A DNA stretch of 64,000 nt from Tethya wilhelma. Lineage: Eukaryota > Porifera > Demospongiae > Tethyida > Tethyidae. A program made the position numbers and the translations under genes. The notes beneath the pieces are model-generated. The model worked only from the letters and a program-made list of their open reading frames with translations, was not told the DNA's origin and searched no databases. The stretch is taken from NCBI GenBank assembly GCA_964030475.1, contig CAXIPT010000003.1, positions 3,219,720 to 3,283,719 of the forward strand, written 5' to 3'. Shown piece by piece: positions 25,463-44,000 of this stretch (position 1 is the stretch's first letter; every line of letters begins with the position of its first letter).

Positions 25463-27012
25463 TCAAGAGTCAGTCATAAAGTGTGGCAGTCCATCATGAT
25501 CAGTTCTGAGTGTGAGGATCTCACATCCTGTCTCTGTCACTAGCAGAGTCTGCTCAAACTGTGCCGACCGCTTCCCATCCTGTGTACGACAAACCAGAAC
25601 ACAAACCATGAATAAACAGAAATCAGAGAGAGAAATGTCTTTACAACTCACAGCTGTGGCAGCTGTCCAATTGTCAGGCCATGTCACATCTCTCCAAGTC
25701 CCTGTGTAGAGTCAGAGGGCACGTGACCATAGTGCACACCCACCCACACTGTCACACACCCACACACAATGTACCTTCATTGATCATGGGTTCAATGGTG
25801 AAGGTGTGGCCAGGCCTCATCACTCCAATGGCTTTGTTCTCTGTAACAGGCGAAAAATGAAAAAATAAAAAAATAAATAAATGCGATCAAAATTAAACTC
25901 TACTACTTACTTGAATAGTGAGGTACATTTGGCAGCGTATGGAACAACCTGTGAGTGAGCGTATGTGTGAGTGAGTGTGTGAGTATGTGCATGTGGTACA
26001 TGAGGAGATGTTGAAGATGCACACAACAACAAAGTCTTCATCTCTCACTGGTTTATGCCGTGGCCACAGTAAGTCTTCACCACAGAGAACCCATTAGCTG
26101 AGGCGTGTTTCTGTATCTCATTACCAACATTTCGATACCTCTCTCCAGGTCGAACTGTACACCATTAGTAATAACCTTTGAACTTTAACCCCCTCTGCCC
26201 CCACTCAACGTACCAATGCCGATGCCTTTCATCATACACTCATAGGCCGTCTCCACGAGCTTCTTACTGGCATCATCAACCTTTCCAATGAAGAACGTCT
26301 CGTTTAGGTCACCATGGAAACCACCATGGTAGACAGTGATATCAACTGGGTAGCAACACAATAACATTCAAAGAGTACAAACAGCAAGCCCCTGTCATTA
26401 ACGAAGCTAATCAATTGTGCATCGTGGTCCTCACCATTACAGATGTCGCCTTCCTGCATCTCTCTAGTGTCTGGTATTCCATGGCAGATGACCTCATTCA
26501 CAGAGCTGCCGTGTGTGTGTGCATGAGGAGCCATCTTGGTGCATAAGATGCTCTCCTATCAATGCTTTTAAATAGTCATCTTCTCTTACGTGCAACATGA
26601 CTTGGGGAAGTTGAAGTAGTTGAGAGGTGAGGGGTAGCAGTCCCGCTCAACACTGGCCTGTTGGCGAGCAATTTAATCATGATGTCATACACTAGATCAA
26701 ACCACACCCACCTCATGAACAACCCGGTCAATCTCGTCTGTGGTCACGCCTGGTTTAGCAACACTGGCAGCAATGTCCAGCACCTCGCGGCCCAGCTGAA
26801 AGGAAAGGAAGACGATTGCATTGGACATCATCTCACAGAGACCCACGGCCTACAACCATACCCTGCAGGCTTTCCTCATTCCATTGATCTCCTCAGGTGA
26901 CAGCTGCCTGATGATTGAAGATCTCTTTGCCTCTCTCTCGCTCTCGGCTATCCCACTCTCGGCATAATCGGGTCGTGGAATGTGAGCAGGGACCTCTCTT
27001 GTCTTACTCTAA

Positions 27013-27043
<31 letters not shown>

Positions 27044-27478
27044 ACCTCAACCCGTAGCCACTGACCCCACACACCCAATGAGAGACTCACCAGTGGATGG
27101 ACTCTCAGTTTACCAGTGTAGTGGAAATGAGGCCAGGGGTTGTAGTGGGAGGTGGCTGCAGGCTTGCTACTGGGAACTGCTGTGCACATCAGTTAATAAA
27201 TTGATGCAGAAATTTTAGCATGTGGTGTGATTACCTGATTTCTTGTGGACCACTTTATGCTCCTTCCAGAATCCTTTGAAACAATCCTAAAGTGATAAAA
27301 CCAGTGATTGACTATGACTTTAACACGAACAGCTTTCAATCTTTTGTCTTGATCTCACCTGTGAGCAGAAGTAGCTCCCTGCAATGCTCATCTTGAGGCA
27401 GGTGGGACACTGCAGAGAGGCTGGCAATGAACAGCCAGTCGTTACACATGTTCTAATAGGATCTGCAGGAGCAGCCAT
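25463..27478 (-). CDS. METAP1: Methionine aminopeptidase 1
   Basis: Start at 27478 ([16 protein letters not shown]). The N-terminus carries the ribosome-linked zinc finger: C-x5-[22 protein letters not shown]. Exons near 27000-27170 give [12 protein letters not shown], and the catalytic part follows: [39 protein letters not shown] (metal-binding aspartates), YCGHGIN (metal-binding histidine), and [15 protein letters not shown] near the stop at 25463 (metal-binding glutamate). It is a dinuclear-metal enzyme that removes initiator methionine from nascent chains. About 12 short exons; a GA/CT tract directly precedes one splice acceptor (about 27012). It shares a short divergent promoter with RPL34. 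Confidence 0.92.
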
Positions 27479-27550
27479 AATTCTGCTGAGTCACTCTTCT
27501 CTTCATTTACTAAATACCTCCAATTAATGCGCACCCCGAGTTGTATTAGT

Positions 27551-28477: not shown

Positions 28478-29348
28478 ATGGAGGCTGAGTACTTGAAGAA
28501 GAGTGTGGCTGGTGCACTAGCCGAGGGACTGGCTGAAGTGGCCAGCAGGCGGCCAGCCGATCCAGTGGAATATCTTGCACTGTGGCTTCTCAAGCATAAA
28601 GTCAACCTCCAAACAAGAGAAGTATAAAGCATGCTACAAAGTCAATGATTTTTAAATAAATTACATTTAAAAACTCGAAATAAACTAGGAACAGGGTGCA
28701 CTCTATGTGGCTCAGCCGCCACCAGCAAAGGCTGATGAAGAGATAACCAAACCAAGTGGTGCTGACAGTGAGAGTCCAGGAGGTAAAGAGGAAGAGAAAC
28801 AAACCACAGAAGAAGTGTCAAGTGAACCTCCTCCTCAGGAGAGTGCACCACCGACCAAAGAAGACCAACCAGCAGCAATCGATGTGCCAACAATCTCCAT
28901 TGAAGTTGAGAGATCCACCTCCAAACTGAGTAGAATCGAAGAGGAACCAGAGGAACAAGAAACCACTGGGTAAAAGTCAGTGTGGTGCATTCAAGCATAT
29001 AATTATAGTAGTACACAAGATTCATTCATTTTTTGTCCTTGTATTTTGTGCAGTGATAAAGAGAAGCCTCTCTCAGAGCAACCACCAGACACTCCTCAAA
29101 CAGAGACAGAGCAGCCACCAGGCAATGAACCTCCTGCACCTGATGAGCAGCCAGCAGGCAATGAACCTCCTGCACCTGGTGAGCAGCCAGCAGGCAATGA
29201 ACCTCCTGCACCTGATGAGCAGCCAGCAGGCAATGGACCTCCTGCGGATGAGCAGCCACCAGGCAATGAACCTCCTGCACCTGATGAGCAGCCATCCACA
29301 CAACCACCACCCACTGAAGATACAGCAGCCAATGAAAACTCCACTTGA
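28478..29348 (+). CDS. DPY-30 motif protein with Pro/Glu-rich repeat tail
   Basis: Three exons: 28478-28621, 28689-28971 and about 29053-29348, about 240 residues. The first exon encodes a DPY-30 dimerisation motif: LAEGLAEVASRRPADPVEYLALWLLKH, given here as LAEGLAEVASRRPADP followed by VEYLALWLLKH. This motif is found in Set1 complexes (DPY30 itself), in adenylate and nucleoside kinases and in ciliary proteins such as DYDC and radial-spoke components. The rest is disordered, acidic and proline-rich, ending in about five copies of a 12-residue unit (GNEPPAPDEQPA). With the X-box just upstream, a ciliary DYDC-like role is more likely than chromatin DPY30. No homolog of the tail is recognised. 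Confidence 0.85.
29118..29300. repeat. 36-bp coding minisatellite, about 5 copies
   Basis: In-frame repeats of a 36-bp unit encoding GNEPPAPDEQPA in the last exon of the DPY-30 gene; one copy is one codon shorter. Confidence 0.88.
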
Positions 29349-29584
29349 ATATTTGAAATCAATGTAAATAAGTTATACATCCATATTATGTAGATACATC
29401 AATATACATAACTTAGCAATCAAAGCCAGGAAAAAACAAAAACAAAAAAAGGATTTCTAGAATACTTTATTGTAAATTTAATTATACAAATGGCCAATCT
29501 ACAATGTTCCACAAACATGTTGATCCTACAAGTCACACACACATGGGGACAGATACATTACTAGTTAGTAGCAACAACAAAGAA

Positions 29585-31560
29585 CTACATATTATCAGCA
29601 GTGCACTGAGCACAGTGGAGTTCCAAGTCAGTCTGAGTCCTGAAGTCTTTCTTGCCACACAGAGGACACGAGGCCATTGGAGGAGCAGTGTTCATTACCT
29701 CCCCGGGACTAACATAACGCCCCTGTAATTATCATACAAACTATCAATAACAGGTCATATAGTCGTGGAAACCTAATGTTATACGTACCTGTTGTCCAGT
29801 GGGCAGACCTATTGTTGTCTGTAGAGGCATATCGAGATCATTGATGGGTATCTGAGCAGGGGCCATGGTGGAGGGGCCAGGGGGGCCCACAGCCCTCAGG
29901 GGACCACGCTGGTTCAGATCATTCTAAATAATGCACACCAATAAAACACAACTGGTACATGTTATTGAATGCCATTGTCTTAATTACCGTTGGGTCCATG
30001 CGAGAGTTGGCCATTGGTTGGTCCATGCGAGAGTTGGCCATTGGTTGGTCCATGCGAGAGTTGGCCATTGGTTGGTCCATGCAAGAGTTGGCCATCGCTA
30101 GACCTTGAGAGACCGTCATTGGGTGGACTCTAACAAAATAAGAGATTATGAATGCACAAAGAAGATCTTAATTGCTCTCTCTCTCTCTTACCTCCCTGAT
30201 GGCTGCACCGTGGGGAGTGGCTGCTGGTGGGGGAACTGCTGTGTCAGCCAGGGTTGGTTGACTGCCGGCTGTAAGGGGTACCCTCCCCCTCCTCCGCTAG
30301 CAACACTGACTGGGAGTTGAGCCTGTTGAGGTGGTCTCTCCCTCGGAGGGAGGGCTGGGGCAGCCTCATGGTGACCAGTAACCATGGAGTGCTGTGGCTG
30401 CTGCTGCTGTGGCATGAAATTTGCTGGCTGTTCCCCAGACCTTCTTGCTGTCGGTTGAGGGGGTGTGACATATTGCCCACCTTGAGCAAACTGCTGTGGC
30501 TGTCCGTACATCTGGTTGCCAGAGGTGTTGAGGGGCGGCTGGTGTGGACCAGACAGGTTCCTCTGCTGCTCACCAGACAGACGGGCCTCTTGCATCACAG
30601 CAGCAGACGAGGCTACACCAGTCTCTTCATACTGATGGGGGCAAAGGACAATTACCAATGAAAACTATCTATTTGTGGGTACTAATTTTAAGCAATTTTA
30701 GTGAATAAAAGCACTGACTGATGAAAGTGCCATCAAAATGAGAAAATTAGAAATGAAAAATTTTAAACTACTACCCACAAGTAATAATTATTTTATGATA
30801 ACAGTGTCTCTAAGGTATGCACACTCCTACACTCCCACACTCCCACACTCCCACACAACTCACGGGATCCTCCTGCAGTCGTTTGGCTGCCTGACGGTTC
30901 AACCTCTCTCGAAGGTCTTTCATGTCTCTCTCCATCTTCTTCATTCTCTCCTCGGCAAGGGTCTTGACCTTGATGGATGCCTCACGCGCCTGCCTCTCTC
31001 TCTCAAAGTCCTCGTGATAGAGCTTCAACTGCAGAGAAACAATGTGAGAGATCAGAACAAAGTCTTATAAAGATCCCTTCCTCCAACCTGGGCATCCATG
31101 TGAGAGAGCCTCTCTGAGGATTCATCTCTCTGCTGTTCAACCTGCCTCATCTTGTCGGCACTCTTGGAGACCTCCATTGTCAACCTGGTCACCTCCGAGC
31201 GAAGAGAGTCCCTCTCCTTCGTCATTTCGTGCAGTCGCTGGGCACATGTGTCATAGTCCTTCAAGATGGACTCCGACTCCTTCTGGAACTCACTGCAGGT
31301 TGTTTCAACGTCTGCCTTCTCCTCAATTAGTACTGTCCTCTGTTTTGATAGCTCATCTCTCTCCGTGTTGAGCTCGTGGATACGAGATATAAACCGCTCT
31401 TTGGTGTCTTGGAGCTCTTGCAGCTCAGTCTTGGTCTTGGTGTACTGGTCCTGCAGGCTGGACAACTTCTCCTCAAGACGTTTGACACGGCAACTGTGTA
31501 GTTTGGGTAGCATGTGTGGGTGGGTGTGCATATATAAACTCGCTGTGTGTGTGTGTGTGN

Positions 31561-31645
<85 letters not shown>

Positions 31646-31934
31646 ATTTCAAGACCTGTGCTCATTCTTTGTATATTCCTCAACTGATAGTTGTTGCTGA
31701 ACTTGAGCCAGACTGCCAACTAGTTGTTCGTTTTCTCTTTGTCTCTCTGTCAGCTGTCTCTGGATGGAGCTCAGTCTGCTCTCAGCATCACGAAGGTTGC
31801 CCTCTCTCAGTGAGAGCTCCTGACGCAGCCTCTCCTTTTCCTGGGAGTGTTGAAGACTCTCAGTTACTAGTCTTTGTTCTTCTTGTTCGTAGTCAGTGAT
31901 CTGTCGTTGGAGCTGTGTGACACGATTCTAAACC

Positions 31935-31990
<56 letters not shown>

Positions 31991-33635
31991 AATTCCATCT
32001 AAGACATCTAGAGACTAGTAGTGCTATCATTACTGGTACCTCTGTGGACTGGAGTCTGTGCTCATAATCCGTTAGCACTTCTTGCTGAAGCTTGGTGTTC
32101 TGTTGAGCAAGAGAACCCTTTTCTTCCTCAAACCTCTCTCTCTCTTCACTCAACTGCCTCTGGAGCTGTTCTATCTCCTGTAAGAAGACACACACACACA
32201 CACACACACACACATAATCAAGAAAGAACTCCATCTCATTACACTAAAACACATACTGATTCTTTCTTTTTGAGTTGGCCCAGTGCATCATTCAGTCGTA
32301 TCCTCATCTGCTGTTGAGGCTTACCCCCTCGAGGGGCAGCTGTTGGAGCTGGTGAAGACTCACTCTCAGAAGGTTTCAAACTCAATTTCTGCAGCTGTTC
32401 TTCCAGCTCAGATATCTTCCTGTCCTTGTCACGTTTCACTCTGCCCACTTCTTTTTGCTTCTCCTCTCTTACCATTTCCACCTGTTGCCGCTGCTCCGTC
32501 ACAGCCTTCTCCAGCTGGGCCACCCTAGTCTGTAGTGAAGTCTTGTCATCATTCAGCAGTGCTAGTTGCTTCTCTTTCCTATCAATGTTTCTCTGCAGTT
32601 GCTCCACGAGGACTTTGTCTCCTGAGCCGCTGGAAGCTTGCGCTCTCAGTGTCTGCAGCTGCTCGGTCATGCTTGACTCCTGGCGGCTCTTCAACTCCAG
32701 CTCTGATCGCAGTGACACCACATTGTGTTCAAGGTGGTTTTGCTTTTCAATCATTTCCTGTAGTTTCTGGTTCTCTTTGCTCAGTCGTGACTCCACCCTC
32801 TCACGCATGCTCTTCTCACGGTCTAGCAGCTCTTGAAGCTCTCTCTTCTCACTCTCCAGCTGTTCCTTGACTTGGAGTGGGATTCCCTGGATGTTGGTGC
32901 GGGGCTTGGGAGTTGGGGCCTTCTGTTTCACCGGGTGTTCTTGACTCTGTCTCTCGAGTTTAGCATGAATCGCTGATCGACTTTCCTCTAGCTCATTCAC
33001 CTTGTGAAGAAGGTCACTGTTTCTCTTCCTCACGTCTCTCAACTGGCGGTCAATCTTACCCCTCTGTTCAGTCAGTTCTTGCATGTGTCCTTGCATTGCG
33101 CTACGGTCTGCCTGAAGGGTCTGGAGTTCTCTACGCAGCTGGCTTACCTGATGACCAGGGTGTGGTTGGGAGGAGAATCATCAAATAGAGCATTAATTTT
33201 GTTAAGTTTTAAAATAAATGCTTCTCTCTTACTTCTTGTTCAAGTTGGTTCCCATCTCTGAGGGCTGCATCTTTCTTGGACTGGACTTCCTCCAAGTCAT
33301 TGGTCAGCTGAGCAACAATGGCCATGTAGTTTTTCTTCTCTGCTTCTAGTTCATACTTCTCTCTCTGCAGTGCCTGTACGTCACGTGCACACAACTACTA
33401 ACGACCAGCATGAGATACCTGAACACATAGAAGGTCTGCATGTCTAGCCAAATGTGTACCTGAAAGTTAGCGGCACTAGCTCCTCCTGGATTGGATCTCT
33501 TCAGCTGCTCATTCTCAGCCTCCAGTCTCTGTATACGCTGCTTGAGGTGGGCATCATTTGGAGTAGCAGCAAAGGAATGAGGCTGTCCGGATCCCTGCAT
33601 CCAACAATTTCAACACAAAATGGTAATGTATGCGT

Positions 33636-33677
<42 letters not shown>

Positions 33678-34588
33678 GTTGCTGCATTGCATATCCCTTT
33701 TCTTTCAGCTCGCCTGCCAGTTGCATGGTCCGACACTTGTAGCCTAGCACGGCCACCCTGGCCTCAAAGAACTTGTTAGTAGACTCAGTATGTTGTTGAC
33801 GGAGCTCTGGAGAACAGAAGAGAACACACGATCATCACTTATAGGGTAACTCAAGTACCTAAAATACAACTCACGTTGGACTTCCTTTGTTAACTCTTCG
33901 TTTTTTTCTCTTAGCTCTGGATATAATCAGAAATGTGATTTAATCACGACCATGGACTGATGGTGGCACATGCAGTGTCAAGACTCACTCTTGGTGGTCT
34001 CCATGTAGCGCTCTATCTCCTGCAACTTGGACTCCAACTGTTCATTGGTCTCGTGAAGAACGTCCACTAGTTTGGTGTTCTCTTTTGATGCAAAATCAAG
34101 TTTCCTACAAATTTCATTAACTGAGACAGCCCCTGAGGTATTGGATCGTTCCCCCCCTCCCTGGGACATTGACGTTGGAACAGCACCATTGTATCCGATT
34201 GGTCCACGAGTCGATCCAGGGTCATGTGACTGAGGAGCTGGGCGTGGCACTGGGGTGGGCCTACAGTGAGATGCAATCACCAGAAGTGTTGTGTACATAA
34301 AATAATAGCATCGGTTTCAATTTAGGCTATACCTCACCTGTACTCCCCGTGGGTAACTTGGCTGTGCCCCTGCTGATTATGGAGGCTAGGGGGCAGCTTC
34401 ACATTGGATGGCAGGTTAGTGAACTGACCATCATTGTACCTTGACCCCTGTTCCTGGACAGCTGCACCGAATCCAAAAGAGTCATGTCCCATACTGGACC
34501 CCCGAGATGAGGTTGAACCCCCCGTGGAATAGCCACCAGAGGGGGGCTGGGCGAGCCGAGCACGGGAAGGAGATGGCTGATGGGACAT
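29585..34588 (-). CDS. UBAN-domain coiled-coil protein with C-terminal zinc finger (NEMO/optineurin/ABIN class)
   Basis: About 18 exons give roughly 1100 residues from ATG 34588 (MSHQPSPSRARLAQPP). A disordered N-terminus is followed by about 700 residues of coiled coil (34080-31090), one exon (about 32255-33147) being very long. The exon at about 30867-31028 encodes LKLYHEDFERERQARE and then LAEERMKKMERDMKDLRERL. This fits the UBAN motif (xxxYxxDFxxERxxRE) that binds linear ubiquitin in NEMO, optineurin and ABIN/TNIP. A Gln/Pro-rich region with a MDQPMANSR repeat follows, then a C-terminal C2HC finger CPLCGKKDF...LELHCAQC, as in NEMO and optineurin. Much longer than NEMO (about 420) or optineurin (about 580). 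A ubiquitin-receptor role in NF-kB-type signalling or autophagy is inferred. Confidence 0.85.
29995..30090. repeat. 27-bp coding minisatellite
   Basis: About 3.5 copies of a 27-bp unit encoding MDQPMANSR in the UBAN gene's third-last exon. Confidence 0.85.
31543..31644. repeat. (TG)n microsatellite with an N
   Basis: About 100 bp of TG in a UBAN-gene intron with one N at 31560, probably a contig join. Confidence 0.9.
31939..31988. repeat. (GA)n microsatellite next to splice acceptor
   Basis: About 25 GA units. On the transcribed minus strand this is a CT tract a few bases upstream of the acceptor of the exon ending near 31929. Confidence 0.9.
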
Positions 34589-34897: not shown

Positions 34898-35947
34898 ATG
34901 GTATGCATACTTGAAATGTCTATAAATTTGTATGACTTTACTCATCCATCGTAGGCAGGGACTCCAGTCAAAGATGTGGTGCTCCCTGACAATCCAGCCA
35001 AGAAATCACTGCTCCTGGAGAAGCATGCTGACTACATTGTTGCCTTTGAGAAGGACAAGGATGACTATGTATGTGTACATGTGTGTGTGTCATACAGGCA
35101 ACATTGTGTGATATGAATTTATATTATGCTGCATGCTGCTGTACCTCCAGGAGTACTGTACGATGGAGTTCCTCCGTATGAGTGGTGTCTACTGGGGTCT
35201 CACAGCCATGGACCTCATGGACCAGCTGGACAGGATGAGCAAGGACGACGTCATCCAGTTTGTCAAGTCGTGTCAGCACCCAACTCTTGGCGGGTTCTCA
35301 CCAACATTGAACCATGACCCCCACCTACTCTATACCCTCAGTGCCATACAGGTGAGTTATAGCCAGGTGCTGCAGCTGGTGCACTGGTAGGCCAAGAGCA
35401 GCTTTTTACTATTACACGTTCTTACGGTGGCCCTGAAGTTTCAAACTGATTTTGCTAACCGATTTTTGATCTAAGCTATTTCTAAGGGATTTTCAAAGTC
35501 ATCTAAGCCGTTTTGTCTAAGCAGTTTTAGTCTAAGCCATTTTCATCTAAGTGATTTTCTTCCAAGTCTAAGGCTAGGGCTAGGAGCTAGATGAAAGCCG
35601 TTTTCATCAAAGCCCTAGCCCATATCCCCTAGCCCCTAAGTGATTTTTTTCCAAGTCTAAGGCTAGGGCTAGGGCTAGGGGTTAGGGGCTAGGAAATAGA
35701 GGCTAGGAGCTAGGGGCTAGGGCTTAGCCCTATCCTACTAAGCCCTAGCCCCTAGCTCCAGCCCCTAGGTGAAAATCTCTTAGATAAAAATCTCTTAGAA
35801 GGGGTTGAAAATAGCCTAGATCAAAAATCGCTTAGATAAAAATCGCTTAGAAATAGCTTAGATAAAAAATCGGCTAGCAAACCAGTTTGAATCTTCAGGG
35901 CCTCTGTACGTTCTTGTCAGATCTGCCTATAATGCATGAAATCACGT

Positions 35948-35987
<40 letters not shown>

Positions 35988-36618
35988 CACAGATCCTCGT
36001 CCTGTACGACAGTACTGATGCAGTGGATGTGGAGGGTGTGGTCAGCTATGTCCACTCCCTACAACAGACTGACGGCTCATTCATTGGAGACAAGTGGGGT
36101 GGGATAGTGATGATGTCATAATTTGAACAATATGTCATGATTATGTCATTGATAATTATTTTGCAGGAGAAGTGGACACGAGGTTTTCATTCTGTAGTCT
36201 AGCCACATTGGCACTGTTGGTGAGTGCTGACACACCTCCAACAAGTCATGTGATTATCATATGATATAATTAAATAGGGTCGTCTTGATGCAGTGGATGT
36301 GGATAAAGCTGTGGAGTATGTACTGAAGTGCATGAACTTTGACGGTGGGTTTGGTACGGTGCCCGGATCAGAGTCACATGCTGGTCAGGTGATGACAAAC
36401 TACCCCTGGGGTAATTAGGCAATTATTAATGAGTGTCCCTATCAATAATTCAGGTGTACTGTTGTGTTGGAGCCCTCGCAGTGACTGGTTGTCTTCATCA
36501 TGTTGATGCAGACCAGCTGGGATGGTGGCTGTGTGAGAGACAACTGCCTTCAGGAGGGCTCAATGGTAAGACCGCTGAGCTAGGCCATGAGATAGTACAC
36601 TATTTAGTATTTTATGAC

Positions 36619-36666
<48 letters not shown>

Positions 36667-37110
36667 AGGTCGTCCTGAGAAGCTGCCAGATGTGTGCTAC
36701 TCATGGTGGGTGTTGGCCTCTCTCAAGATGATTGGTCGTATTCACTGGATCAGTAAGGTAAAGGAACACACTGGAATACTGTCCACTTTATTAATGGCGG
36801 GCTATGTCACGATGCTTGCAGGAGAAACTGATAGAGTTCATTCTAGCCTGTCAAGATGAAGAGACTGGGGGATTCTCAGACAGACCAGGAGACTGGGTGA
36901 GAAGATGTTGCATTTATCATGGCCATGTCTCATCATTCTAGTGTTTTGTTCACTAATTATCAGGTTGACCCCTTTCATACCCTGTTTGGATTAGCCGGTC
37001 TATCGTTGCTAGGCAACAAGCAAGTCAAAGCAGTGAACCCAGTAGTGTGTATGCCAGAGCATGTGCTCGAGAAAAGAGGGATCAAATTTAAGCTATTGTC
37101 ACAACACTGA
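34898..37110 (+). CDS. RABGGTB: Rab geranylgeranyltransferase subunit beta
   Basis: Ten exons: 34898-34900 (start codon only), 34955-35068, 35151-35351, 35993-36098, 36167-36219, 36278-36388, 36454-36565, 36669-36757, 36822-36896 and 36964-37110, about 330 residues. Very close to human [84 protein letters not shown] (zinc-site Asp and Cys), [16 protein letters not shown] and [17 protein letters not shown] (zinc-site His). It is the catalytic subunit that attaches geranylgeranyl groups to Rab GTPases. Intron 3 holds a hAT-like MITE. The gene diverges from the UBAN gene across 310 bp. Confidence 0.96.
35424..35907. mobile_element. hAT-like MITE with 8-bp target duplication
   Basis: A 484-bp foldback element inside RABGGTB intron 3. 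Ends are inverted repeats (ACGGTGGCCCTGAAG left; reverse of right end ACAGAGGCCCTGAAG), with symmetry continuing through ATCTAAGCTATTTCTAAG. It is flanked by identical 8-bp sequences ACGTTCTT at 35416-35423 and 35908-35915. Subterminal regions carry repeated ATCTAAGCGATTTT units and the centre has GCTAGGGCTAGGG tracts. There is no coding capacity. An 8-bp duplication is typical of hAT elements. Confidence 0.82.
35949..35985. repeat. (CA)n microsatellite beside splice acceptor
   Basis: CA run ending a few bases before the acceptor of RABGGTB exon 4 (35993). Confidence 0.9.
36621..36664. repeat. (TG)n microsatellite at splice acceptor
   Basis: TG run ending four bases before the acceptor AG of RABGGTB exon 8 (36669). 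Confidence 0.9.
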
Positions 37111-37194: not shown

Positions 37195-39872
37195 TTATCT
37201 AGCTTTGGATTTCTTCCTGAAAACTTTGCCTGCTGATTTCTTTACTCTAACTTTAGTCTTGTCAGTTGCTGATGTTCTGAACTGAACTTTTCCTCTCATA
37301 GTTCCTTTCTTCTTTCCTTTAGTGTCACCTTTCCTCTTTAATATCCCTCTTCTTGGGGCAGGGGCATCCCCACTAGCTCGATCTGGTTTCATCCTCTTAG
37401 CATCAGGCACAGAGGGTGGCGGACCACCAAGACGCTTCTTGGAGAGTGTGGCACCTCCGAACAGAGCTGCAGGGATAAAATGTAGCGAGGGACACTTATA
37501 ATGAAGGCACCAATGGTGCACAAGCCTCGGCACATTCAACTAGCTAGCTAGCGCATGCTAATTACACTGTGTAAGAGTGCATCATAGCAACATGAATACT
37601 ACAAGTTCATGTATTTGAAAACAATCACCTTATAGGTGCACAGTGACACTGTCACAGCCACATCGCAACTCTCAGTGTGATGAAGCAGCACTGAGTAAGT
37701 CACACATAACAAAGCCTGATCCGTGTGTCAGCCTAGTTCTGAGCCAATAGATCTGGCTCAGTAAGAAAATCAGTGGAATGGTAAAACTTGAACGGTTATA
37801 CTAATTTTTATACTGCTCTAAAGCTGATATTCAGCTAGCCTGAACCATTCAGGCCACATGTACTGCATGACATGATGAAACACAATTGATTTTGTAGGTT
37901 AAATTTAGTGAGATAATATTTTGTAGAACTATGCATCATAGTTTACTTCTTAGTTCTTGAGTTTAATAATACTTACCTGTGCAAGCAGCTAAGCCAACTA
38001 AACCAAGCACATCCTGATCAGATCCAGAGCTCTGATCTGATGGTGTCCAACTGTATTTCTAGATAACGCACACTATACATGGGCATGATCGATGGGTGTG
38101 GTTTCGAAGCTAAGCGTTCAAAGAAGCACAAAAGCCTCAAATCTCAGAAACTACAGCGTTTTGTAAGATTCTACACAACAAATACCTAGATAATTTCGAT
38201 TCATGAACGTAAGTACCTTCCGTTTGGATCACAGAGCTGCCATTCTTCAGATAATCTAGTAACAGACACACAGACGAAACGACTACCGTAATCCTCTGCA
38301 TGTGCTTTGCACGTGCCGAGGCTTAACTAGTGGAGAACCCAAGAACCTTTTCTCATTAAAACTACTGGAGAACCCAAGAACCTTTTCTCATTAAAACTAC
38401 TGGAGAACCTAAGAACCTTTCCCATTATAACTATACTGGAGAACCTTTCCCACTAAAACTAGTGGAGAACCCAAGAACCTTTCCCACTAAAACTAGTGGA
38501 GAACCCAAGAACCTTTTCTCATTAAAACTACTGGAGAACCCAAGAACCTTTTCTCATTAAAACTACTAGAGAACCCAAGTCTTGACCAAAGGCTATAATC
38601 CATTGGTTTCTCATCACGTATGATGGTTTTAGGTTCTTGGTTTCTCATCACTGTATGATGGTATAGGTTCTCAACACATTATCAAGAATATCTCAGCATA
38701 GGAAGGTCGTATTGAGCTGGGATTGGTACCATTTTGATCAGCGTGAAGAGATCTTTCAAATGATATATTTTGATGCCAGATTTAAATTTTGATGAAAATC
38801 ATCAAAAACCAGAACCCAGCAACACATTACCAGGCTTGTCTCAGCCTAGGAAGGTCGTATTGAGATGGGACTGGCACCACTGTGGACAGAGTGATGAGGG
38901 CTTTCAAATGATATGGTTTACTTGTGAAATTGGAAAATGGTAATTTTTGTCAAAATCGCACTTGACCAAATGATTTTCATTAAAATTTAAATCTGGCCTC
39001 AAAATATATCATTTGAAAGATCTCTTTGTGCTGATCACAATGGTACCAATCCCAGCTCAATACGACCTTCCTAGGCTGAGATATTCTTGATAATGTGTTG
39101 AGAACCTATACCATCATACAGTGATGAGAAACCAAGAACCTAAAACCATCATACGTGATGAGAAACCAAGAACCCAGCAACACATTACCAGGCTTATCTC
39201 AGCCTAGGAAGGTCGTATTGAGATGGGACCGGCACCATTGTGGTCAGAGTGATGAGAGCTTTCAAATGATATGGTTTACTTGTGAAATTGGAAAATGGTA
39301 ATTTTTGTCAAAATCGCACTTGACCAAAGGCTATATATTCATGGTTTTTGATGATTTTCATCAAAATTCAAATCTGGCAATAAACCATACCTATTGAAAG
39401 ATCTCTTTGTGCTGATCACAATGGTACCAATCCCAGCTCAATACGACCTTCCTAGGCTGAGATATTCTTGATAATCTGTTGAGAACCTACATGTATATAT
39501 ACCATCATACAGTGATGAGAAACCAAGAACCTATAACCATCATACGTGATGAAAAACCAATGGATTATAGCCTTTTGGCAAGACTTGGGTTCTCTAGTAG
39601 TTTTAATGAGAAAAGGTTCTTGGGTTCTCCACTAGTTTTAGTGGGAAAGGTTCTTGGGTTCTCCACTAGTTTTAGTGGGAAAGGTTCTTGGGTTCTCCAC
39701 TAGTTTTAGTGGGAAAGGTTCTTGGGTTCTCCAGTATAGTTATAATGGTAAAGGTTCTTAGGTTCTCTAGTAGTTTTAATGAGAAAAGGTTCTTGGGTTC
39801 TCCAGTAGTTATAATGAGAAAACTGCACGTGCAAAGCATGTGCAGAGGATTAGGGTAGTCGTTTTGTCTGTG

Positions 39873-39903
<31 letters not shown>

Positions 39904-40995
39904 TACTAGATTATCTGAAGAATGGCAGCTCTGTGATCCAAACGGAAGGTACTTACGTTCATGAATCTAAATTATCTAGGTATTTGTTATGTAGAATCTT
40001 ACAAAACGCTGTAGTTTCTGAGATTTGAGGCTTTTGTCTGCTTTTGTGCTTCTTTGAATGCTTAGCATCGAAACCACACTCATTGATCACGCCCATGTAT
40101 AGTGTGCGTTATCTAGAAGTACAGTTGGACACCATCAGATCAGAGCTCTGGATCTGATCAGGATGTGCTTGGTTTAGTTGGCTTAGCTGCTTGCACAGGT
40201 AAGTATTATTAAACTAAATTGATTTTGTAGGCTAAATTTAGTGAGATAATATTTTGTTGAACTATGCATCATAGTTTACTTCTTAGTTCAAGTGTGTCAG
40301 TGTTTCAATGCAGTACATGTGGCCTGAATGGTTCAGGCTAGCTGAATATCAGCTTTAGAGCAGTATAAAAATTAGTATAACCGTTCAAGTTTTACCATTC
40401 CACTGATTTTCTTACTGAGCCAGATCTATTGGCTCAGAACTAGGCTGACACACGGATCAGGCTTTGTTATGTGTGACTTACTCAGTGCTGCTTCATCACA
40501 CTGAGAGTTGCGATGTGGCTGTGACAGTGTCACTGTGCACCTATAAGGTGATTGTTTTTCAAATACATGAACTCGTAGTACTCATGTAGCTATGATGCAC
40601 TCTTACACAGTGTAATTAGCATGCGCTAGCTAGCTAGTTGAATGTGCCGAGGCTTGTGCACCATCGGTGCCTTCATTGTTGCAGTAATGCTTGTATTGTT
40701 TTGATTAATTGGGGGTAGGGGAATATTTCGTTTAACAATATTTACCTTTATTTGCTTAAAAATTAACGTCTTTTTCTTTTCTTGTTGTGATTTAAAATTT
40801 TTCACGCTGCCAGTAAAGAAGTACATGTACATATTTGCTTAAATATTTGTTTACCATGTTGGTTGGATTTTTAGCTGTTCATGGTAACTGTGAAATTCAA
40901 TCAGTAGACAAAATGTTATGCAAACAGAATGAAACATGCACAAAGGCATCTGTCCTGAACTACGCCAAAATAAACTAACTTCTTACCAATGTCAT

Positions 40996-41026
<31 letters not shown>

Positions 41027-44000
41027 ACACACTCACACACTCACACACACACACACACACATGTAGCCCCTCCATGAAGGCAACCTCCCTCAGGCAAGAG
41101 ACCCCCCTCTTCCTCCTCCCAGTGAGGATCCCAACCAGTGGTCCATCTGGAGCATCCCGTCCTCTCACCCTCACTACGGCCCGCCCCATGCCCCACGTCT
41201 GTACCCCTCTCTCACACCCTCTGNACTAGAGAACCTAAGAACCTTTCCCACTAAAACTAGTGGAGAACCCAAGAACCTTTTCCACTAAAACTAGTGGAGA
41301 ACCCAAGAACCTTTTCCTAGAGAACCTAAGAACCTTTCCCACTAAAACTAGTGGAGAACCCAAGAACCTTTTCCCATTAAAACTAGTGGAGAACAACCTT
41401 TTTCCACTAAAACTACTGGAGAACCCAAGAACCTTTCCCATTATAACTACTGGAGAACCCAAGAACCTTTCCCACTATAAAACTAGTGGAGAATCCAAGA
41501 ACCTTTCCCACTAAAACTACCAAGAACCTTTCCCACTAAAACTAGTGGAGAACCCAAGAACCTTTTCCCATTAAAACTAGTGGAGAACCCAAGAACCTTT
41601 TCTCATTAAAACTAGTGGAGAACCCAAGAACCTTTTCTCATTAAAACTACTGGAGAACCTAAGAACCTTTCCCATTATAACTAGTGGAGGCTCAGAACCC
41701 AAGAACCTTTCCCATTAAAACTAGTGGAGAACCCAAGAACCTTTCCCACTAAAACTACTGGAGGACCCAAGAACCTTTCCCACTAAAACTAGTGGAGAAC
41801 CCAAGAACCTTTTCCCATTAAAACTAGTGGAGAACCCAAGAACCTTTTCTCATTAAAATGAAGGCACCAAGGCGCACTCAACTAGCTAGTACACTTATAT
41901 GCATACAGTGTAAAAGAGTGTAACATAACTCAGTATCACTGAAAACTTCAAAACTACAGGCTATGATCCATTTAGTGGCCGGCATAGCTAACACGGCTAT
42001 GGTGAAGCAGCACATTACAGACTATAAACCACATGAGCAAAGTCTAGCACTGATGAGCTGGGCCTCAGTAAGAGCCTAGCTAACCACAGCTAGATGCATT
42101 AGCTAAAATGATCTATAGCTTGTGTAAAGTCTTTGCATGCCCTATATGCTTACATAGAAAGCAGACCAACTCATGTCTGTCTTGCCAAACAACACTAACC
42201 AATAGCCATGCATGCAAAGAGCCATGCAGCATTGGACCTCAGCAACACAAATTCTAGATAACGCACACCAAATTAGTAGGCGTGGCCTCGAAGCTAAGCG
42301 CTCAAACAGAAGCACAAAAGCCTCAAAACTCAAGAACTACAGTGTTTTGGACAGCAAAAAATATATTTTTACAAGATCATTCAGAGTTATGAACGTAAGT
42401 ATCATCAATTTTGTCGCTAGAGCTGTCTTTCTTGAGATTTCGATGGGACAGACAGACAGACAGACAGACAGACAAAACGACTACCGTAACCCTCTGCACG
42501 TGCTACGCACGCGCCGAGGCTTAATTATTATGGTCAAAATAATAGTCGATTAATGATGTCATCGAACCTGGATCAGGGGTTTCCCCCACTTCTTCCCGAT
42601 ACCATTCTTCATCACTATTGTCATTTTGATCCTCATTGGCCACACCCACTTCTTGCTGGCCAGCTAGACTGCGCTGTTTGTGGAGCTCTTTTTCTTTCTT
42701 CTTTCTTGCCACATTCCTCTCCTGTTCTCTCCTCCGCTGCTCCCTCAGTCTCTTTACCTCCCTGGCCTTCTTCCGTCGGCTGCGAACCTCACTCTTGGAC
42801 TTGTGAACTGAAAACAACCAGTGTACACAGAAATGTTTAGACTAACAAATGTAGTGAATGTCTTGAAAATTGGTAACCTAGAACCTCAAACAGCCTAAGT
42901 CCATTTGGTTTGAGAATGCCAGTAGAAAAATTTGAATAACACCCAATCTATTTCAAAATTTCAAGCACAATTGGAAAGCGCTCATTCTCCCTCTTCTGTC
43001 AAAAATTAGCTAATGAAAACTATTGCATGAATCTCATTATTTCACATCCAGCGGTATTCTGAAACTAGATGGACTTTATGCAGTGCATTTCACAGACAGT
43101 GTCAGTTGGGGGTTCCACCCTACCCATTGAAGCCATTATCCTCCGAGTGTCTTACCATAGGCATGATAGAGGACCTCCCCGCCGCACACCCCTGCCTCGA
43201 TCTTCACCAGACTCAGTTGGAGACGAGGACCAAGCTAAAACAGACATCAAGACAAGTAATACCAGGGACCTTTGTACCACAGCTGACATCTATCCCACCT
43301 CTGATAATCTCACTGTACTCTGTTCGGACCGGACGTTCCCTCGTCCAGGAAGATCCTGGGGGAGTGTCACATCTCCCTCCCCTCCCATTTCCTCTCCATC
43401 ACTCTCGGATGCATAACCCCTGCAATTAAACAATCTATGATGTAATGCAGATGGCCTCTCTTGCACCAACACACCCGGTGAGGTAATCACTGATGTCATT
43501 GAACTGACTCAGGTTGGGCACTTGAGAACGATTCAGTTTCTTGACTCCTCTACTGACGCCCCTGGCAACAACCTTGATGACACTGCAACCACCACCCACA
43601 ATAGATAGAGAGGATAAAGTATGCAGTTATAAGTCACACATGCAGTTATAAGTCACACATGCAGTTATAACTGACACATAAAGTTATAACTGACACATGA
43701 AGTTATAACTGACACATTCACAGTGCAGGTTGTAACTCACAGACGAACACACAGCTACAAGAGAAGGACTCACTAGTGCCTGAACTCCAAGCTATTGGTA
43801 GAGGAATCAAACTGGAAGAGAACACACCTCTTGATGTCGGCTAGCTTCACCTAAGGAACAAATGAGACAAGCAACCAATAATGAGAGGCAGCACCATGTG
43901 GGCTATAAGCTGCTCACTGTAGTGACTGAAATGGGAGGAAACATGTTCTGTAGCATGGCCGACATCAGCTTGGCTGGCTTGTCTGTGCATGAAAACCCGT

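Follow-up and report, generated by a model that had tools for sequence, protein, structure and literature searches.

Does a sponge possess a protein that reads ubiquitin chains in the manner of NEMO or optineurin? The question is raised by a minus-strand gene at positions 34588-29585 of a 64,000-nucleotide stretch of Tethya wilhelma DNA (contig CAXIPT010000003.1, called the window throughout), where an earlier note, made from the letters alone, had proposed a giant UBAN protein of about 1100 residues. Our gene model comprises 15 exons separated by 14 introns, all GT-AG and compatible in phase, and encodes 1232 residues with a single terminal stop; the great length therefore stands, the figure does not. 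Judged from its sequence, the product is likely to be a giant UBAN-type reader of ubiquitin chains that ends in a C2HC finger.

The UBAN motif

The UBAN is carried by exon 11 (31028-30864, minus strand; 31028-30867 in the earlier note), which reads LKLYHEDFERERQAREASIKVKTLAEERM. Residues 894-909, LKLYHEDFERERQARE, contain the DFxxERxxRE core together with the aromatic residue at -3 that is expected of the family, and the core DFERERQARE occupies residues 900-909 (30981-31010, minus strand). Using a 126-residue segment as query, the Pfam profile CC2-LZ scored 29.0 bits (E 1.5e-6), and in a sequence search of the PDB 15 of the 16 rows at E<=0.1 were NEMO or optineurin, with best values of 0.0015 and 0.0056, respectively, and no ABIN among them. 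The best alignment, with NEMO, runs over 66 residues without a gap. None of ten heptad-preserving shuffles of the segment matched CC2-LZ at E<=0.1; nine of the ten did match other families, the best at E 7.1e-4 as against 1.5e-6 for CC2-LZ on the real segment. When residues 131-975 were shuffled 20000 times with the heptads preserved, the core D[FY]xxERxxRE itself arose by chance in 5 cases.

Further evidence comes from the gene structure, as all eight UBAN genes that we read, the window gene included, have a GT-AG intron in phase 0 at precisely the same place, six codons ahead of the D of DF or DY. In this comparison the upstream exon ends were chosen by reading frames and the genes are those that were found, not an exhaustive list; the common position nevertheless supports homology independently of the profile. 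Profile, PDB matches and intron position together support a CC2-LZ/UBAN region formed by exons 10 and 11 (30864-31493, minus strand), the latter beginning at 31028 after the phase-0 intron.

Residues D900, E904 and R908 of the window protein align with D311, E315 and R319 of NEMO, and E904 also with E478 of optineurin. According to one paper, disease mutations at these three NEMO positions lead to defective ubiquitin binding and optineurin E478G abolishes the binding of linear chains (PMC11854354). From these conserved residues we infer that the window protein may bind linear ubiquitin. The segment ASIKVKTLAEE after QARE, described earlier as unusual, sits opposite KLAEKKELLQE of NEMO and is indeed divergent, yet it is not an insertion.

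Gene model and domain layout

The coding exons, all on the minus strand and placed by GT-AG borders and phases, are located at 34588-34338, 34260-33989, 33916-33875, 33806-33676 and 33594-33460 (exons 1-5), 33373-33233, 33147-32257, 32177-32040, 31927-31656 and 31493-31088 (exons 6-10), and 31028-30864, 30631-30192, 30129-29988, 29923-29789 and 29722-29585 (exons 11-15). An exon-chaining script returned the identical 1232-residue protein with a raised intron penalty only, and at its first penalty setting the gene was over-split into 27 pieces with half of the finger lost. As the script had been trained on these same exons, its agreement is not an independent proof of the model.

By composition the protein begins with a head of about 130 residues (exon 1 and the first part of exon 2, 34122-34588) that is rich in serine (16.9%), glycine (15.4%) and proline (11.5%). 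It is followed by a long coiled coil of about 820 residues (approximately residues 131-948, the start being approximate; 30864-34121), which is matched by several coiled-coil profiles, all below their curated cut-offs. Exons 12-14 encode a linker rich in proline and glutamine (P/Q-rich; residues 949-1187, 29789-30631), with 16.7% proline, 15.3% glutamine and no lysine over residues 976-1190, and within it lies a tandem repeat of a 27-bp unit (29993-30095, 3.8 copies, MANSRMDQP units). The last exon encodes the finger CPLC-X13-H-X3-C (residues 1206-1227, 29603-29668). Both the long upstream coiled coil and the Gln/Pro-rich insert described earlier are thus found in the model, which joins finger and UBAN in 15 phase-compatible exons without an internal stop. 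Together with the CC2-LZ match, the PDB matches and the intron position, it supports the two-part design of NEMO and optineurin that the earlier note had proposed. The best sequence match of the finger is the UBZ of FAAP20 (E 0.003), and UBZ entries are present among its Foldseek rows; we regard the resemblance to UBZ fingers as weak.

Placement within the UBAN family

The window protein probably belongs to the NEMO/optineurin side of the family, and we lean, with some reserve, towards the NEMO side in particular. Its ERQARE follows the ERxARE pattern seen in NEMO and optineurin, whereas six of the seven other UBAN genes that we read in the genome carry ERxDRE, the remaining one (L036) having ERRSRE. 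With ERQARE in place of ERxDRE, and with no ABIN row in the PDB search, it does not have the features of an ABIN. In contrast, the UBAN of gene L037 finds ABIN1 best in the PDB (E 5.1e-7), followed by optineurin (6e-5), and that of the plus-strand gene of L008 finds ABIN2 best (4.7e-4), followed by ABIN1, and neither NEMO nor optineurin appears at E<=0.1. The phylogeny suggested as a check was reconstructed as a short, unrooted tree built from 12 segments over 42 columns. It joins the window protein with L036 (support 91) and separates NEMO, window protein and L036 from the rest (ultrafast bootstrap, UFBoot, 82), with optineurin on the other side of this split. BLOSUM sums over the 42-column core gave 77 for NEMO, 63 for ABIN1, 49 for optineurin and 37 for ABIN2, the last two over a shorter overlap; for gene L005 they were ambiguous (NEMO 92, ABIN1 93).

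Related UBAN genes and pathway context

Scanning the genome with the CC2-LZ profile matched four other places, one of them over the cut-off. When the window UBAN served as protein query, two of the four matches fell in the window gene itself and the other two at new places (E 0.0028 and 0.52). UBAN exons were read in L005, L006, L007, L036, L037 and, once per strand, in L008. L036 (L036:5004-7309, G000:C3), which lies on the same contig as the window gene at a distance of about 75 kb, is a paralog and shares 28% identity with window residues 525-955 (E 5e-20). L006 (L006:1923-9318) is a UBAN gene without a kinase, predicted to exceed 1600 residues, with a C2HC finger closing its last long frame, so the window gene is not alone in being very long. 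In L006 and L037 the UBAN exons are followed by frames rich in P/Q or in asparagine and glutamine (N/Q) that end in a C2HC finger, and the exon-chaining models of both genes spliced these fingers out.

Unexpectedly, in the plus-strand gene of L008 (L008:383-2037, G000:C4, about 0.715 Mb) a single frame stays open from the kinase domain (PF07714, 135 bits) through to a coiled coil that ends in SAQAQ, and a 149-base intron separates this frame from the UBAN exon. We read it as one gene that encodes an IRAK-like kinase together with an ABIN2-type UBAN. The same order, with a kinase ahead of a UBAN exon, is seen on the minus strand of L008 for a second kinase (128.6 bits for PF07714; IRAK4 as best PDB match, 9.2e-25) and in L007 and L005 for one kinase-like frame each, identified by eye. 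These three may be kinase-UBAN fusions as well. L005 (G000:C3, about 7.82 Mb) shows a kinase-like frame, a coiled coil and a UBAN exon and is the strongest CC2-LZ match listed in the genome scan, and on the minus strand of L008 a P/Q-rich frame ending in a C2HC finger lies downstream. A further kinase-like frame in L007 is followed by a coiled coil, two fingers and a P/Q-rich frame, with no canonical UBAN. The L007/L008 cluster (G000:C4:699000-724999) as a whole contains five or more kinase-like frames, of which Pfam confirmed two and the rest were identified by eye; a UBAN exon lies downstream of three of them and a P/Q-rich frame with C2HC fingers downstream of two.

The genome also contains a HOIP-like gene (L038-L039, G000:C1, about 4.76 Mb) with a C-terminal E3_UbLigase_RBR domain (LDD) at 99.4 bits (cut-off 23) and IBR_1 at 55 (cut-off 27); PUB (28.5 vs 34.3) and UBA_HOIP (21.6 vs 22.4) remain slightly below their cut-offs. 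Its presence suggests that the host could make M1-linked chains. A frame on the opposite strand nearby is presumably forkhead-like. Rel-homology exons that exceed the cut-off lie at two places, separated by nearly a megabase. With the gene structure and the HOIP-like gene, these exons point to an animal as the probable host.

We also considered the window protein as an ancestor from before the split of the UBAN adaptors, which the earlier note had suggested it might resemble. This is not supported, as ABIN1-type (L037) and ABIN2-type (L008) genes and a HOIP-like gene coexist with it, and in the small unrooted tree the window protein joins NEMO and the paralog L036.

In the protein database none of 7968 candidates scored against the whole window protein reached E<=0.001, and none of 217 scored against residues 900-975 reached E<=0.1. 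These empty results count for little, as short exon frames of relatives would escape the length filter. The joined kinase-UBAN piece of L008 matched 1176 proteins at E<=0.001. Here kinase frames were up to 70% identical, most of the best 120 of the 1176 are 300-400 residues long, and a pattern check found a UBAN core or C2HC finger in none of these 120; the frames look like animal DNA called without introns. No description of a protein like that of the window was found in the openly licensed literature.

Proposed mechanism and alternative explanations

If the window protein is a chain reader, its long coiled coil would form a parallel dimer, in which the UBAN could grip M1-linked and, more weakly, K63-linked ubiquitin chains via the conserved Y/DF/ER/RE face. 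The UBZ-like finger at the C-terminus would provide a second ubiquitin contact, while the P/Q-rich linker and the N-terminal head might let chain-bound dimers gather into clusters. Such clusters could then bring in client kinases or hold them in check, in a pathway of innate immunity or autophagy.

Several observations weigh against this assignment. The CC2-LZ match, proposed earlier as a check, is there on the segment (29.0 bits) and on the whole protein (21.5 bits, E 3.2e-4), yet neither score reaches the curated cut-off of 35.3; over the full length of the protein the coiled-coil profiles CCDC113/96, APG6_N, ERM_helical and ATG16, all below cut-off too, outscore it, and the window UBAN exon is absent from the profile scan of the genome at E<=0.001. 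Taken together, this might indicate an ordinary coiled coil with a UBAN-like stretch by chance. We hold that to be highly improbable in view of the shuffle results, the common intron position and the ungapped NEMO alignment. The ABIN1-type gene L037 likewise falls short of the cut-off (33.7 vs 35.3). For the finger, Foldseek puts the FAAP20 UBZ first, with an insignificant E of 0.7, and the spacing is X13, compared to what we take to be X12 in NEMO. That UBAN and finger exons come from two different genes is conceivable, as the 232-base intron 11 lies between them and the model was built from genomic sequence. It is nonetheless very unlikely, because exons 11-15 are phase-compatible without a stop and UBAN exons are likewise followed by P/Q- or N/Q-rich frames with C2HC fingers in L006 and L037, even if the models there spliced the fingers out. 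The paralog L036 has DY for DF, and its frame after the UBAN runs into a stop, with no finger found. Together with the divergent helix after QARE this could speak for a decoy or CEP55-like member, a structural scaffold whose UBAN no longer binds chains; we regard it as unlikely, since the window copy has kept the core residues named in the disease mutations.

The most serious competitor, to which we give somewhat less than an even chance, is a UBAN chain reader of its own lineage, orthologous to neither NEMO nor optineurin, that does not serve IKK or TBK1. As it shares the chain-reading mechanism with the reading that we prefer, the two probabilities overlap. The kinase-binding N-terminal domain of NEMO (PF11577) was matched by profile neither in the window protein nor in the genome, and a PDB search with residues of about 125-232 did not find it either; an IKKbeta NEMO-binding motif and OTULIN were not found in the genome. 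All these genome searches were made exon by exon and had no true positive control, and such a search is weak for short domains. Branches are long, the tree rests on 42 columns only, and over these the window core is 36% identical to NEMO and equally 36% to the ABIN1-type L037. On the other hand, NEMO and optineurin are the sole UBAN proteins in the PDB search at E<=0.1, the ERxARE signature is theirs and not the ERxDRE of ABIN1, ABIN2 and most other genes of this genome, and the split with NEMO has a support of 82. A giant UBAN reader with a C-terminal finger is still the explanation that we prefer.

A wider reading is offered only tentatively: the window protein might be a NEMO-type scaffold without a kinase, within an expanded system of UBAN-finger proteins. 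One sibling at least, and perhaps four, would carry an IRAK4-like kinase and an ABIN-type UBAN on one chain, and part of the cluster on contig C4 also has P/Q linkers and C2HC fingers. In that case chain reading would cluster and activate the kinase directly, one polypeptide doing the work of two (NEMO plus IKK), and the window protein would be a shared scaffold or a competitor of the UBAN kinases. If the reading that we prefer is right, one genome combines a giant NEMO-side reader, ABIN1- and ABIN2-type genes, a HOIP-like gene and Rel-homology exons, so that the tools for reading linear ubiquitin would already have diverged in this animal; the UBAN-kinase sibling would then be a natural kinase that senses ubiquitin within a single chain.

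Neighbourhood of the gene

About 115 bases past the stop an AATAAA (29466-29471, minus strand) is a candidate polyadenylation signal. Tail to tail with the UBAN gene lies a plus-strand frame with PGNEPPAPDEQPA-like units, containing a 36-bp tandem repeat of 5.2 copies (29109-29294). Head to head with the UBAN gene, plus-strand frames at 34955-36941 presumably encode a protein resembling the Rab geranylgeranyltransferase beta subunit, and minus-strand frames at 25752-27490 presumably one resembling a type 1 methionine aminopeptidase that carries a zinc motif at its N-terminus. A large foldback spans 37500-40677, with inverted arms such as 37618-37868 and 40308-40558 (251 nt, 100% complementary); repeats of about 35 bp occur inside it and again at 41204-41858.

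Comparison with known systems

Among the known systems NEMO (IKBKG) is the best PDB match and shares the UBAN core YxxDFxxERQARE, the upstream coiled coil, a flexible linker and the C-terminal C2HC finger. It differs in its length of 419 residues, as given in PMC11854354, compared to 1232 in the window protein. The latter in turn shows no detected kinase-binding N-terminus and has a long P/Q linker with 27-bp repeats. Optineurin (OPTN), the second molecule among the PDB matches, also has an ERxARE UBAN, and the window protein is longer. We take the C-terminal finger of optineurin to be a further likeness. ABIN1 and ABIN2 (TNIP1/2) belong to the same UBAN family and are the best matches of other genes in this genome, but they carry the ERxDRE signature instead of ERQARE. 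With the UBZ fingers of FAAP20 and TAX1BP1, finally, the window protein has its C2HC finger in common.

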